Shown here piece after piece: positions 3,388-29,307 of a DNA stretch of 37,825 bases (positions are counted from its first letter, which is position 1; each line of letters starts with the position of its first letter). Origin of the DNA: Robiginitomaculum sp. (GTDB taxonomy: Bacteria; Pseudomonadota; Alphaproteobacteria; Caulobacterales; Maricaulaceae); NCBI GenBank assembly GCA_002733905.1, contig NVXK01000012.1, forward strand, positions 1 to 37,825. The letters run 5' to 3'. Both the position numbers and the translations under genes were made by a program. A model generated the notes under the pieces. The model saw nothing but the letters and a program-made list of their open reading frames with translations, was not told the origin of the DNA and ran no database searches.

Positions 3388-3464
3388 TGGTGGGTGAGGA
3401 GGGACTTGAACCCCCGACCAGCCGGTTATGAGCCGGCGGCTCTAACCAGCTGAGCTACTCACCC
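3388..3464 (-). tRNA. tRNA with CAT anticodon, probably elongator tRNA-Met
   Basis: The minus strand folds as a 77-nt cloverleaf with a GGGTGAG/CTCACCC acceptor stem, a D arm with AGCTCAGCTGGTTAGAGC, a GCCGG/CCGGC anticodon stem around loop CTCATAA, and a T arm with GGTTCAAGTCC. The CCA end is encoded in the DNA. The anticodon CAT is at 3430-3428. The paired first base (G1-C72) excludes the initiator tRNA, which has a C-A mismatch there. A tRNA-Ile2 (lysidine-modified CAT) cannot be fully excluded from sequence alone, but the overall sequence is like elongator Met tRNAs of alphaproteobacteria. Confidence 0.93.
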
Positions 3465-4365: not shown

Positions 4366-4396
4366 AAAAAAGGCCCAACACTGTTTGGGCCTTTTT
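4366..4396 (+). terminator. Rho-independent terminator after the SIMPL gene (bidirectional)
   Basis: The stem AAAAAGGCCCAA pairs with TTGGGCCTTTTT around a short loop (ACACTGT), with a T run on the plus strand. The minus strand also ends in a T run, so it could stop transcription from the right as well. A very similar element, with the same CGTATTC flank, lies at 7257-7297. Confidence 0.85.
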
Positions 4397-4708
4397 CGTA
4401 TTCATTGCTTAGTCTTAAGTCTATTTTTATGCAAAAGCCCTGCTCCAACATCACCCGTTCTGACGGTACCATTTTTTCATATATGACCTCGTTTTAGAAC
4501 CTCTTATGATTGGGTGAAAAATGACCAATAAAAACAAATAAAAGAAGCATAAAAAGGCGCGTGAGTTTCATACAGTTTCTTTAGATTATATTGAACCTTT
4601 TGAAGAACATTGTTAAAAGACGTTCATTCACTTTTGAGTGCTTCAAACAAATATTACCCTGAAAATATGTATTTGTGGCTGCTTAATGTTACTCACATGC
4701 AGGACCCT
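4397..4708. other. Gene-free AT-rich stretch
   Basis: There is no supported gene on either strand. A 95-codon plus-strand ORF beginning at 4610 runs antisense through the end of the ABC exporter and has no coding features. I looked for a small double-glycine-leader peptide that the C39 exporter might once have processed and found none. Confidence 0.5.
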
Positions 4709-24706: not shown

Positions 24707-25657
24707 ATGACTGATACTATCCACCACAAAGTTCTTATTATTGGTTCTGGCCCTGCGGGCTATACTGCCGCTGTTTACGCGGCGCGGGCTATGTTAGAAC
24801 CTGGCATTGTAGCCGGCATGCAGCCTGGTGGCCAATTGACGATTACAACTGATGTGGAAAATTATCCAGGTTTTCCCGAAATCCAAGGCCCAGACCTTAT
24901 GGAGCATTTCAAAACCCATGCTTTGAAATTTGGCACGAAAATGCATGAGGATATTATCACTGATGTAGACTTCTCGTCTCGCCCGTTCAAAATGACTGGC
25001 GATACGGGGCAAAACTATACAGCAGACGCCGTTATTATTGCCACAGGTGCACAAGCGAAATGGCTTGGCCTTCCTTCTGAAGATACCTTCCAAGGCTTTG
25101 GCGTTTCCGCCTGTGCCACATGTGATGGTTTCTTTTACCGCGATAAAGAAGTTATCGTTGTTGGTGGCGGCAATACTGCCGTAGAGGAAGCTCTCTTTCT
25201 TACCAATTTTGCGAGCAAAGTTACACTCGTCCATCGCCGCGATACATTGCGGTGCGAGAAGATTTTGGAAAAACGTTTATTTGAAAACCCAAAGGTGGAA
25301 ATTCTATGGAATACGACACTTCTAGAAATTCTTGGCGATGAAATGCCGAAAGGTGTGACGGCCGCGAAACTCATGAATGTGAAAACGAAAGAAGTTTATG
25401 ACCTCCCCGTTCACGGGATTTTTATTGCCATTGGGCACAAACCTTCTACTGATGTTTTTAAGGGTCATGTAAAAATGAACCAAGGCGGATATATTGAAAC
25501 GGCTCCAGACAGTACTGCGACTGATATCCCTGGGGTATTTGCCGCTGGCGATGTCAGTGACGAAACTTTCCGTCAGGCGGTTACAGCAGCAGGGCTAGGG
25601 TGTATGGGCGCATTGGAAGCAGAACGCTGGCTTACAGAGCAAGCAGAAAAGACTTAA
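24707..25657 (+). CDS. trxB: Thioredoxin-disulfide reductase
   Basis: TrxB moves electrons from NADPH through FAD and a redox disulfide to thioredoxin. The 316-aa cytosolic protein has the FAD-binding IIGSGPAGYTAAVYAARA near the start, QPGGQLTITTDVENYPGFP, the redox-active CATC (Cys136 and Cys139) followed by DGFFYR, the NADPH site VVGGGNTAVEEALFL with HRRD, and the C-terminal GVFAAGDVSDETFRQAVTAA. All key residues are present. GAGA lies five bases before the ATG. The LysR gene starts 11 bases after the stop, so the two are likely co-transcribed. Confidence 0.97.
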   Translation: MTDTIHHKVLIIGSGPAGYTAAVYAARAMLEPGIVAGMQPGGQLTITTDVENYPGFPEIQGPDLMEHFKTHALKFGTKMHEDIITDVDFSSRPFKMTGDTGQNYTADAVIIATGAQAKWLGLPSEDTFQGFGVSACATCDGFFYRDKEVIVVGGGNTAVEEALFLTNFASKVTLVHRRDTLRCEKILEKRLFENPKVEILWNTTLLEILGDEMPKGVTAAKLMNVKTKEVYDLPVHGIFIAIGHKPSTDVFKGHVKMNQGGYIETAPDSTATDIPGVFAAGDVSDETFRQAVTAAGLGCMGALEAERWLTEQAEKT

Positions 25658-25668
25658 GAGAAAAACAT

Positions 25669-26574
25669 ATGCCAGATAGTCTTGATTGGGACAAATTAAA
25701 AACATTCCACGCCGCCGCAGAGACAGGCTCTCTTACAGCAGCAGCGGCAAGGCTTCGCATATCACAATCAGCAGTTAGCCGCCAAATCACCTCGCTAGAA
25801 GGACAATTAAAAGCACCGCTCTTTCATCGTCACGCACGCGGACTTACCCTCACGGAACAAGGGCGCATCCTCTTTAAAGCAGCTCATGACATGGCGCATC
25901 AAGCGGCACTTGCCCAAGCAAATGTCATGGATTCTCAAGATAAACCGCAAGGTATATTACGCGTTTCGACACCAATTTCTCTTGGTTCCAACTGGTTGAT
26001 TTCAATTTTACCTGCCTTTATCAAAGCCTACCCCCTGATTCATGTCCAGCTTATTTTAGAAGATGAGGAACATGATTTATCATCATTTGACGTAGACTGT
26101 GCGTTGCGGCCTTGGCCCTCTACACAAGGCGACCTTATTGAACGCAAACTAGGAACGATTTCACAAAGTCTTTATGCTTCGCATAATTACCTCGCCACGA
26201 ACGGTGCGCCGCATGATGTTCACGATCTTGACAACCATTCTATTGTTGCCTTTGGCAATTTGATCCCAAGTCGCCTGAATACGTCTAATTGGGTAATGGA
26301 ACTTGGGCGTCCCGAAGGTGATCCACGTATTCCTATGCTCACAGTAAATAATCTTCACGGTATAATGCGTGCGGCCGAGGCAGATATCGGCATTGTCGGC
26401 ATTCCAGATTATATGGTTGCTATGTCACGAAGGCTTGTGCGCGTTCTACCGCAGGTCAGTGGGAAACCATTCGATGTCTATTTTGTTTACCCAACTGAAT
26501 TACGCGGCTCGACCCGTGCCAAGGTATTTCGTGAGTTCTTAATGGAAGCCGCGAAAAAGTGGCGAACATTTTAG
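25669..26574 (+). CDS. vtlR: LysR family regulator, VtlR/LsrB type
   Basis: I start at the ATG at 25669 (301 aa), because AAGAG precedes it and MPDSLDWDKLKTFHAAAETG is the natural LysR start; the longer frame overlaps trxB. The winged helix-turn-helix is at about 6-65 (TAAAARLRISQSAVSRQITS, then LFHRHARGLTLTEQG). The effector-binding domain follows (VQLILEDEE, DCALRPWP, ERKLGTISQSLYASHNYL, DLDNHSIVAFG, FDVYFVYP). From memory this pattern matches LsrB of Sinorhizobium and VtlR of Brucella/Agrobacterium, which lie next to trxB and activate AbcR-type small RNAs. Here too a predicted small RNA follows. A 16-bp palindrome 19 bases after the stop is a candidate binding site. Confidence 0.85.
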   Translation: MPDSLDWDKLKTFHAAAETGSLTAAAARLRISQSAVSRQITSLEGQLKAPLFHRHARGLTLTEQGRILFKAAHDMAHQAALAQANVMDSQDKPQGILRVSTPISLGSNWLISILPAFIKAYPLIHVQLILEDEEHDLSSFDVDCALRPWPSTQGDLIERKLGTISQSLYASHNYLATNGAPHDVHDLDNHSIVAFGNLIPSRLNTSNWVMELGRPEGDPRIPMLTVNNLHGIMRAAEADIGIVGIPDYMVAMSRRLVRVLPQVSGKPFDVYFVYPTELRGSTRAKVFREFLMEAAKKWRTF

Positions 26575-26592
26575 GGTAACATCGCCGATAGG

Positions 26593-26608
26593 TATGCATA
26601 TATGCATA
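26593..26608. promoter_or_regulatory. 16-bp palindrome, candidate LysR operator
   Basis: TATGCATATATGCATA is a perfect palindrome made of two TATGCATA copies. Its centre lies about 66 bp before the predicted start of the small RNA, the usual place for the recognition site of a LysR activator (near -65). Binding by the adjacent regulator is inferred. Confidence 0.5.
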
Positions 26609-26654
26609 GAAGCTGTGACATATTAGGCCTGCTCATTCATACTTTTTTATTCTA

Positions 26655-26660
26655 TATAAT
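26655..26660 (+). promoter_or_regulatory. -10 box of the predicted small RNA
   Basis: A perfect TATAAT is present, and the position 17 bp upstream (about 26632-26637, CTCATT) is a poor -35 box. A strong -10 with a weak -35 fits an activator-dependent promoter. Confidence 0.5.
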
Positions 26661-26666
26661 GGACAT

Positions 26667-26778
26667 CGAATGATTGATGCGTCCCTTGTGTCTCATTTGA
26701 ACAACCGCATACGGTTCCTCCCCGAATAGTATTGCGAAGACTTCAGCCGGACCTCTTTTGAGTGTCCGGCTTTTTTTT
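26667..26778 (+). ncRNA. Predicted AbcR-like trans-acting small RNA
   Basis: There is no ORF between the LysR gene and the first kinase, yet this stretch has a TATAAT box at its front and a strong intrinsic terminator at its end, defining a transcript of about 112 nt. Inside are a small hairpin (AACCG-CATA-CGGTT, 26703-26716) and a CU-rich single-stranded segment TTCCTCCCC (26715-26723). That segment is complementary to a Shine-Dalgarno sequence. AbcR (alpha-r15) small RNAs of Rhizobiales use such CU-rich motifs to block translation of transporter mRNAs, and they lie beside the lsrB/vtlR gene downstream of trxB. The same synteny occurs here. The 5' end is predicted, and sequence-level homology to AbcR cannot be shown by eye. 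Confidence 0.55.
26745..26778 (+). terminator. Strong intrinsic terminator
   Basis: AGCCGGAC pairs with GTCCGGCT over an 11-base loop and is followed by a run of eight T. It is 170 bases past the LysR stop, so it may end both the small RNA and read-through from trxB-LysR. Confidence 0.93.
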
Positions 26779-26785
26779 GCCCTCA

Positions 26786-26804
26786 CTTACAGATAGTTAA
26801 CCAT
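26786..26804 (+). promoter_or_regulatory. CtrA-like box upstream of the first hybrid kinase
   Basis: CTTA-N7-TTAACCAT resembles the CtrA site TTAA-N7-TTAAC with one mismatch in the first half. TTAAC begins 60 bases before the kinase ATG. The same arrangement precedes the second kinase. Confidence 0.45.
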
Positions 26805-26856
26805 ATGCATTTACCTTGCCCTAAATAAGACGGTGTGGGGGAAAGTTTGGACAAGA

Positions 26857-29307
26857 ATGGGTAATAATGACTCGCACGCACCAAGGCAGATTACCGTCAA
26901 TGGGGGTAAAATTGACAATTTCCGCTTAAAGGAAGGCATGGAAGCCGAGTTTTTCCAAATTCTTGACGAAGCTCTTGATATTGGCATTAGTATTCTGGAT
27001 GAAAACCTCAATTATCTATATGTGAACAAATGCGCGACCTCTACGATGGGCTTAACACAAGAGTCCTTCGCCATTGGCGACCCACTCAGTAAAGTTCACG
27101 ACATAATGGTGGCGAAAAACATCATTGACCCGGAAACTTTAAATAATAAAAAGCTTTCTTCTGACGAATTACAAGCGCAATACCAAAAAGGGCAAGATGT
27201 TAGCAACAATCTAGTGCGTTTGAATACGGGGGTCATTGAACGTGTATACCGAAAACAAACGCCCAAAGGTTACACCGTTTCCGTCGCCTATGACGTAACA
27301 CAACTCGCCCAAAAAGAAGAGATGTTACAAAAATCTCTGGAACTCGGGAACTCAGGGTATTGGCTTTATGATTTCAAACATAAGAAAATTGAACTTAGTC
27401 CGTCGATAAGCTCCATTATTACGCCCGAGGAAGTTGATAAAGTTTACGCAAGGGGCATAATGGCAATTATTCACCCAGAAGACCGGGTTCTTTTCAAAAA
27501 TGCCCTAAAATCAATGATGAAAAATGGTGATACTATAGATTTCACATACCGTAATGTAGCTGGTGATAAATGGTATCGTACCACAGGAAATTCTGAAAGA
27601 GACTTGAGCGGAAAACTTGTACGGTTACGCGCTTTTGTAAAGGATATCACGCAAGAAACAATGCAAGCCCACGAGCTTGAGAAAGCAAAGGATGAAGCCG
27701 TCGCTGCAAATATTGCGAAGTCAGAGTTTCTTGCAAATATGAGCCACGAAATACGTACGCCAATGAATGGTGTACTTGGCATGGCTGAGCTTTTAGGAGA
27801 AACAGACATTGATGATCGCCAGCGCGAATTCATTGAGGTTATCCAACAATCATCCAATGCACTCCTGACAATTATTAATGACATTCTTGATTTTTCCAAA
27901 ATAGAAGCGGGGGCTTTTGAACTTGATCCTGTTCCATTTGATTTACGTGACGCCCTTGATGACATTGCATCTTTGCTCAACATTAAAGTGCAAGAAAAAA
28001 ATTTAGAACTTATCATTGACTACCCTACACATATGGAAAGTTTCTTCATTGGTGATGTAAGCCGCATTCGACAGATTGTTATGAACCTACTTGGAAATTC
28101 TGTTAAATTTACAGAAACGGGCCATATTTTGATTGCTGTAGCTGTTAAAAATTTCTCAAACACGCGCGCAGAATTAAACGTAAGTATTACCGATACGGGT
28201 ATTGGGATTGAGAAAGAAAAACTCGATCATATTTTTGAAAAATTCACGCAAGCGGATAACTCGACAACACGTGTTTATGGTGGGACCGGTTTGGGGTTAA
28301 GTATTTCAAGACGTATTGTAGAGCTTATGGGGGGTAAACTCTCGGTCAGTTCCGTGTTTGGCGAAGGTTCAACATTTTCCTTCACCATTCCATTGCCAAT
28401 AGATACACAAGCAGAGCGTCAGGTTAAAGACACAGCCAACCTAAACGGCTTAAAGGCACTTATCGTTGACGATATCATGCTCAACCAAACCATACTTACA
28501 GAACGACTGAAAGCATGGGATATGCGGACTCTTGCTGTGAGCGATTCTGTCGCGGCTGTCAAAGCCATCAAACATGCTGAAAATATTGGCGACCCTTTTA
28601 GTATTATTTTACTCGATTATTTAATGCCAGGCATGCATGGGCAAGAATTGGCACGTCTCCTTACAAATGACCCCATGATTCACAAACCGTCAATCATCAT
28701 GCTCTCCTCTTGCGATCAGCCCGTATCTACTGCTGACTTACTTGCTATAGGAATTGATAGTTATTTAATGAAACCTGTAAGGGAGGGCATTCTTTATGAC
28801 AACCTTATAAAGGTTGTTTCGAAAAAAACTCAGCGTCAAGCCCTTGCGAGCACCGAAACAAGTGCCTACGGGCATTTCGAAGCACAAACCATTGCACCGA
28901 ACAAGACACCAATACTTGTCGCTGAGGACTTCCTTTTGAACCAAGATGTCGTGCGTTTAATGTTGCAAGATTCACATTATGTTCCCCATTTTGTGAATAA
29001 CGGTAAAGAAGCCGTAGATTTATTTATTTCGCAACCTGACACATTCTCTCTGGTACTCATGGATATTTCAATGCCAGTTATGGATGGCTATGAAGCAGCG
29101 CAACGTATTCAAGAATTTTTAACTTCGCAAAAACGACCTTCAATCCCCATTATTGCACTCACGGGGCACGCCCTTAAAAATGACAGAGAAAAGTGCATGA
29201 ATGCTGGCATGCATGACTATTTAATGAAGCCCGTGAAAAAAGAAGATATATTGAAAGCCCTCGATTATTGGACAAACACAACTTCGCACCTCAATATAGC
29301 TATCTAG
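26857..29307 (+). CDS. Cytoplasmic hybrid histidine kinase with two PAS domains and two receivers (copy 1)
   Basis: From the ATG at 26857 the protein is 816 aa; a GTG at 26833 is possible. No transmembrane segment is visible. Domains in order are: a PAS-like domain (about 20-110, [20 protein letters not shown]), a PAS_3-type domain (about 165-265, ending in a PAC-like [10 protein letters not shown]), and a HisKA dimerisation domain with His297 in [16 protein letters not shown]. The ATPase domain follows with [31 protein letters not shown] and [12 protein letters not shown]. Receiver 1 has Asp587 in LLDYLMPG and receiver 2 has Asp736 in [14 protein letters not shown]. Both receivers keep the acidic pair, the Ser/Thr and the Lys (LMKP). 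The signal is likely internal, perhaps redox, gas or a small ligand through the PAS domains. A paralogue follows directly; no separate response regulator or phosphotransferase gene is nearby. Confidence 0.93.

Follow-up and report, generated by a model that had tools for sequence, protein, structure and literature searches.

A structured small RNA behind an LsrB/VtlR-type regulator gene in Robiginitomaculum sp., a positional counterpart of AbcR outside the Rhizobiales

The stretch examined here is contig NVXK01000012.1 of the Robiginitomaculum sp. assembly GCA_002733905.1 (37,825 nucleotides, nt; the whole stretch is called the window below), and the question it raises is whether the slot that holds AbcR RNAs in the Rhizobiales, behind trxB and the regulator gene lsrB/vtlR, is used in the same way in other Alphaproteobacteria. 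The original prediction had placed an AbcR-like small RNA at 26640–26778, beside trxB and a LysR-type regulator gene. Our analysis of folding, covariation and conservation of place indicates that 26663–26778 is a real structured RNA, that it is the positional counterpart of AbcR and that it probably works alike, while its membership in the AbcR sequence family was not borne out.

Structure and distribution of the RNA

The best estimate of the RNA extent is 26663/26665–26778, or 114–116 nt. The length and bounds first proposed therefore stand only approximately, as they gave ~112 nt and coordinates that omit a dyad at 26593–26608 (described in the next section). The elements of the RNA are:

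26663–26778, + strand: small RNA (extent of the match to covariance model R1; expected start 26664/26665)
26666–26700, + strand: hairpin 1, loop UCCCU at 26682–26686 (single folds and genus covariation)
26706–26736, + strand: hairpin 2, loop CUCCCC at 26718–26723 (4/9 pairs changed on both sides over 20 sequences)
26745–26778, + strand: terminator hairpin with U-run (single folds and genus covariation)

The CU-rich segment TTCCTCCCC at 26715–26723, a TATAAT at 26655–26660 within CTATATAAT and the hairpin with its T-run at 26745–26778 were all found where they had been predicted. The fold of 26640–26778 has an energy of −41.3 kcal/mol and beats 200/200 dinucleotide shuffles (z −4.96). A DNA search of 61 related genomes gave 20 matches, distributed as 12/14 genomes of the genus (own included), 8/23 other members of the family and 0/24 genomes from the order's other families. 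Folded singly, these 20 sequences gave hairpin 2 around the CU-rich motif, the terminator and an upstream hairpin, and in 18/20 of them UCCC lies inside hairpin 1 with all, or all but one, of its bases unpaired. The predicted folds would thereby expose anti-Shine-Dalgarno sequence in two loops, as CUCCCC in hairpin 2 and as UCCCU in hairpin 1.

Pairing was retained in 94.7% of 431 cells of the genus alignment (12 sequences) and fell to 34–43% when the partners were slid along it. Changes on both sides were seen in 14/36 pairs in comparison to a shuffled mean of 6.2, and 0/500 shuffles gave a count as high. Within the genus these changes fall in hairpin 1 and the terminator, and hairpin 2 is nearly invariant there; its covariation was counted over the 20 sequences, while hairpins 1 and 3 were counted over genus alignment A3 because alignment A2 misaligns terminators. 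The motif CTCCCCG is constant in 20/20 sequences and the surrounding stem varies.

The same alignment bears on whether the stretch codes for a peptide. In keeping with the ORF-free unit of the original prediction, 26640–26778 is free of open reading frames of 100 amino acids or more. A frame of 19 codons is open in the window and in several relatives. This frame is poorly conserved, with ATG or GTG at its start in only 5/12 genus sequences and with stops or shifts in L005, L011 and L012, and the sequence changes track base pairs. A short peptide is hardly credible on these grounds and was rejected.

Covariance model R1 was built from the genus sequences, window included, and scores 113.5 bits in the window's own genome, whose sequence is part of the model. 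At an expect value (E) of 0.01, R1 matched 80/137 family genomes in 13/19 genera; matches in other genera are new finds, as it was the genus sequences that built the model, and with the genus covariation they uphold the predicted small RNA gene. All of the 30 best R1 loci lie after lysR, 29 with trxB in view and the remaining one at a contig end. Across 200 genomes of the order, 18 matched at E 0.001, including three from another family by model match. One genus genome also carries a second, weak R1 match (28.8 bits; G011:C46:149185–149298).

Regulator, operator and promoter

The two genes preceding the RNA are:

24707–25657, + strand: trxB, thioredoxin reductase (TIGR01292, 402.8 bits against a cut-off of 343.45)
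25669–26574, + strand: LysR-type regulator, LsrB/VtlR orthologue (9hh1 match and cysteine positions)

The predicted LsrB/VtlR-type regulator with adjacent trxB was found on both counts, orthology and linkage, trxB lying 12 nt upstream of the regulator gene. The regulator has the domains HTH_1 and LysR_substrate, and its best PDB match is 9hh1 at 271 bits, followed by a runner-up at 112 bits. We infer that 9hh1 is LsrB-like (Agrobacterium LsrB), because its four cysteine positions all equal those reported for that protein (PMC11975290; this and the other papers are cited from excerpts). The window regulator is 43–45% identical to Rhizobiaceae LsrB/VtlR proteins and has a single cysteine, C144. 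Rhizobial C273 is replaced by Val, and the C144–C273 redox pair is therefore not usable by this protein. Family regulators showed C144 in 49/50 and Val at C273 in 50/50 sequences (repeats of some genomes included), and regulators of 89 class-wide loci retained C144 in 7 and C273 in 1.

The closest named relatives among the matches listed are two Robiginitomaculum sp. metagenome-assembled genomes (MAGs; regulator identity 80 and 76%), both of which carry trxB, dyad and RNA. Two further Robiginitomaculum-labelled MAGs (L166 and L167; 54 and 53%) have neither trxB nor dyad at the locus. NCBI places Robiginitomaculum in the Robiginitomaculaceae, Maricaulales, and judged from these nearest named relatives the host is outside the Rhizobiales, as originally proposed. 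Elsewhere in the window, a hybrid histidine kinase gene further downstream (26833–29307) has a GTG at 26833 as its listed start, but a visual comparison with relatives points to an ATG near 26857, and the sole Rfam gathering match is a transfer RNA gene at 3391–3464 on the minus strand.

Between the lysR stop and the RNA lie two candidate control elements:

26593–26608, no strand: dyad TATGCATATATGCATA, presumed LsrB operator (centre about −63/−64; spacing to the −10; counterpart at AbcR loci)
26652–26657, + strand: −10 element CTATAT (conserved in the family alignment)

A −10-like element begins 50–51 nt past the dyad centre in 31/33 distinct family loci; one of the remaining loci has a spacing of 45 nt, one is without a −10, and in four loci another candidate lies beyond the first. 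The distance from the lysR stop to the dyad ranges from 12 to 106 nt across the distinct family loci. A constant dyad-to-−10 spacing with a varying stop distance favours a separate promoter, and speaks against the RNA being mainly a processed 3′ untranslated region of the trxB–lysR messenger RNA (mRNA) that lacks an important promoter of its own. Such an origin has a precedent in SorX of Rhodobacter, cut from the 3′ end of an mRNA (PMC6238624, PMC9438474), and a pattern scan listed no terminator on the + strand in the gap from lysR to the RNA, although the same scan also missed the RNA's own terminator. We consider this origin improbable as the main source, and both sources may add up.

Dyads of AbcR loci were located relative to the start of the ar15 match, taken as the 5′ end; the loci were four from Rhizobiaceae, where the first of the RNAs was used, and 12 more with an ar15 match. 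The GCAT half stands at −61 to −63 in 16/16 of these Rhizobiales loci, and a full ATGC-N6/7-GCAT dyad is present in 12/16, at −64.5 to −66.5. This GCAT half is the start of the published LsrB motif, GCAT-N3-TG-N3-T, which occupies −61 to −49 of the S. meliloti abcR1 promoter, where LsrB binding was shown and motif removal caused a more than 22-fold loss (PMC8844928). The dyad TATGCATATATGCATA is presumed to be an LsrB operator.

Known RNA families and a proposed mode of action

AbcR1/AbcR2 (ar15, RF02345; Sinorhizobium, Rhizobium, Shinella) resemble the window RNA in their slot after trxB–lsrB/vtlR, their CU-rich anti-Shine-Dalgarno loop and terminator, their length of about 112–121 nt (PMC8844928) and an ATGC-N7-GCAT dyad at −64.5, comparable to the dyad near −64 in the window. 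The AbcR-locus gene order had been predicted correctly: annotated S. meliloti and R. leguminosarum records show trxB and then LysR/VtlR, and these and two unannotated Rhizobiaceae records each have two ar15 RNAs after LysR/VtlR. In contrast, the window holds one copy, and its genome gave one R1 match where AbcR has multiple copies per genome in Rhizobiaceae/Brucellaceae, the families from which ar15 was described (PMC3712013). The window RNA also has its best-kept CU-rich loop in hairpin 2, and its regulator is without C273. AbcR RNAs are further marked by repressing ABC transporter mRNAs in an Hfq-dependent way, and an hfq gene is present in the window's genome.

AbcR/ar15 membership itself failed in the covariance search, with no ar15 match up to E 10 in 26550–26850 or in the whole genome. 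R1 likewise found no match at E 1 in the four Rhizobiaceae AbcR loci, and the overlap of class model R2 (built from SorX-like core RNAs, see below) with window-type RNAs is confined to the terminator or does not rise above noise. For these three reasons the RNA was not filed as ar15. A true but diverged member, descended letter for letter, would fit the shared locus, dyad position, CU-rich loops and terminator; given the missing ar15 and R1 matches we regard it as possible but doubtful. Over 289 class genomes, ar15 gave 3 weak matches, none above cut-off, under stricter search filters; the Rhizobiaceae seem to be missing from this sample, as no regulator fetched by then was >54% identical to 9hh1. 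An Rfam gathering scan was made of 40 of the 80 named loci (the best 80 regulator matches among those listed). It gave ar15 in 12 and ar14 in 1, and no family in the Maricaulales, Hyphomonas, Henriciella and Caulobacteraceae loci given, nor in several labelled Hyphomicrobiales. At E 0.1, no Rfam family matched the Methylobacterium and Tistrella plasmid loci (L126, L127).

SorX (RF02784) and SorX-like RNAs share a CCUCCC core and a terminator with the window RNA, and the SorX-like RNAs likewise follow lsrB; SorX is absent from the matches up to E 10 in 26550–26850. MmgR/SisA–D (alpha-r8, RF00519) have a single-stranded UUUCCUCCCU-like anti-Shine-Dalgarno core and a terminator (PMC12559287), and a weak alignment to this family covers a weak hairpin, the CU-rich stretch and the terminator. 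That an RNA of this MmgR/alpha-r8 (suhB) kind lies here by chance is nevertheless very improbable: the score of 17.2 bits is far under the gathering cut-off of 41 and is exceeded at eight places of this genome, and such RNAs typically adjoin a different locus, with an N-formylglutamate amidohydrolase gene (PMC12559287), while the place after lysR is conserved family-wide.

In our preferred reading, which sequence comparison makes quite probable, the window encodes a small RNA of ~115 nt that acts in trans, is transcribed from a promoter of its own and is activated by the LsrB/VtlR-type regulator whose gene directly precedes it; it would be AbcR-like in its working and locus, and a lineage-specific type as an RNA. 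The basis is the covariation of the RNA, its conserved place, the constant dyad–promoter spacing, the orthologous regulator and the presence of an hfq gene. The regulator would bind the dyad near −64 and activate the CTATAT promoter, and the RNA would end at its own terminator and bind Hfq. Its CU-rich loops, CUCCCC foremost, may then base-pair with several mRNAs at their ribosome-binding sites and prevent translation; AbcR and SisA are reported to work via anti-Shine-Dalgarno sequences (PMC3712013, PMC5461406, PMC12559287). A processed form may also arise through transcription that runs on from lysR.

Several observations weigh against the RNA gene or against this preferred reading. A generic consensus scan listed neither the promoter of the RNA nor its terminator, and the case for the RNA therefore rests on comparison. 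R1 was without a match in 57/137 family genomes, and hairpin 1 is weak in 3/20 sequences from some genera (z −0.7, −1.5 and −1.7). The window has the GCAT half and the dyad at the right distance, yet with one mismatch to GCAT-N3-TG-N3-T, and as a regulon marker the dyad word is not rare (6 genome sites versus 11 for a reversed control). Finally, the target scan gave nothing firm, and the control of nutrient transporters suggested in the original prediction is a conjecture: CGGGGAGG near ATG was found at 123 sites in 14 genus genomes versus 41 for the reversed pattern, in a crude scan with summed counts, and no excess is claimed because words of this kind are in any case favoured at ribosome sites.

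In 6/14 genus genomes there is a ribosome site, CGGGGAGGTKGACCGATG, that is complementary to the RNA loop (locus L242, at G000:C7:52068–52085, and five other genomes); the frame at this site in the window genome resembles nuoE by eye.

The slot after lsrB across the class

Regulator relatives at E 1e-45 occur in 169/289 class genomes. We sampled 89 class loci, comprising the 29 top-ranking ones apart from the window's locus and another 60 at about one per family, drawn from families with a listed match away from contig ends. The dyad was present in 39 (shuffles 0.84), a core AAGCCTCCCTGT in 43 (shuffles 0.01) and both in 29. Among 40 distinct class loci with a dyad, a −10-like hexamer stood 51–52 nt past the dyad centre in 25 cases (per-offset mean 1.3), and the 33 named loci with a dyad gave a weaker peak, with 4 each at 51, 52 and 54 (mean 0.55).

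A SorX-like RNA core, ACGUCUCCCAGACGUGAAGCCUCCCUGUU plus terminator, is highly conserved after the LsrB orthologue, with the short core in 43/89 class loci (for example L034, L037, L066, L116, L193 and L202). The SorX model matched these core RNAs in 16/20 loci given, at 22–47 bits and once above cut-off. With just 3 base pairs, class model R2 comes close to a plain sequence profile; it reached at least 47 bits in 15 of 67 named loci, four of which are in the model, from Thalassospira, Defluviicoccus, Pelagibius, Tagaea, Magnetovibrio, Minwuia and unnamed relatives. In Thalassospira the SorX-like RNA occurs twice in tandem (L196:4041–4122 and 4414–4489; L206:4011–4092 and 4385–4462), resembling the two AbcR copies of Rhizobiaceae.

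Other occupants were also seen. Hyphomonas and Henriciella loci show, by eye, different UCCUCC-bearing stretches in the same place, and a Roseitalea MAG has ar14 instead of ar15 in the slot behind lysR (L203:3618–3743; dyad at −61). Where R1 matched named loci weakly, 45/48 of the matches were on the same strand and within 1 kb after lysR; these were not taken as homology, as other CCUCCC-plus-terminator models also hit this place. An alphaproteobacterial trxB–lsrB locus was likewise seen on a contig that bears the label Bacillus subtilis (L211), probably a mislabelled or contaminated assembly.

The layout of trxB, lsrB, dyad and CU-rich RNA is thus present in many, not all, sampled alphaproteobacterial loci, with differing RNA sequences; it is widespread and not universal, since many loci show nothing at that place. 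The original prediction that the regulator–RNA pair is much older than the Rhizobiales stands as far as the layout is concerned, which class and named loci place well beyond that order. This can be interpreted as an old class module (trxB, lsrB, an LsrB dyad ~64 nt before the start and one anti-Shine-Dalgarno RNA) that kept its regulator, operator geometry and logic while the RNA diverged past recognition or was replaced. AbcR, the SorX-like RNAs of Rhodospirillales-type loci and the window RNA would then be lineage-specific occupants of one slot, a proposal for which we see the chances as evenly balanced. The idea is partly in print already, since abcR1 promoters of several alphaproteobacteria were aligned in PMC8844928 and PMC7486931 calls the trxB–vtlR order well conserved in the class. 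Searches of open PMC full text returned no paper pairing SorX with AbcR, no AbcR paper for Rhodospirillales with Caulobacterales and none on Robiginitomaculum with small RNA.

In rhizobia and their relatives, nutrient uptake is under the control of AbcR RNAs. The loss of C273 outside the Rhizobiales raises the question of which signal the ancestral regulator responded to. Should the slot prove class-wide, such RNAs would be findable by locus rather than by sequence, the age of the LsrB–RNA circuit would become testable, and the locus would offer an example of a fast-changing riboregulator driven by a transcriptional switch that is itself conserved.
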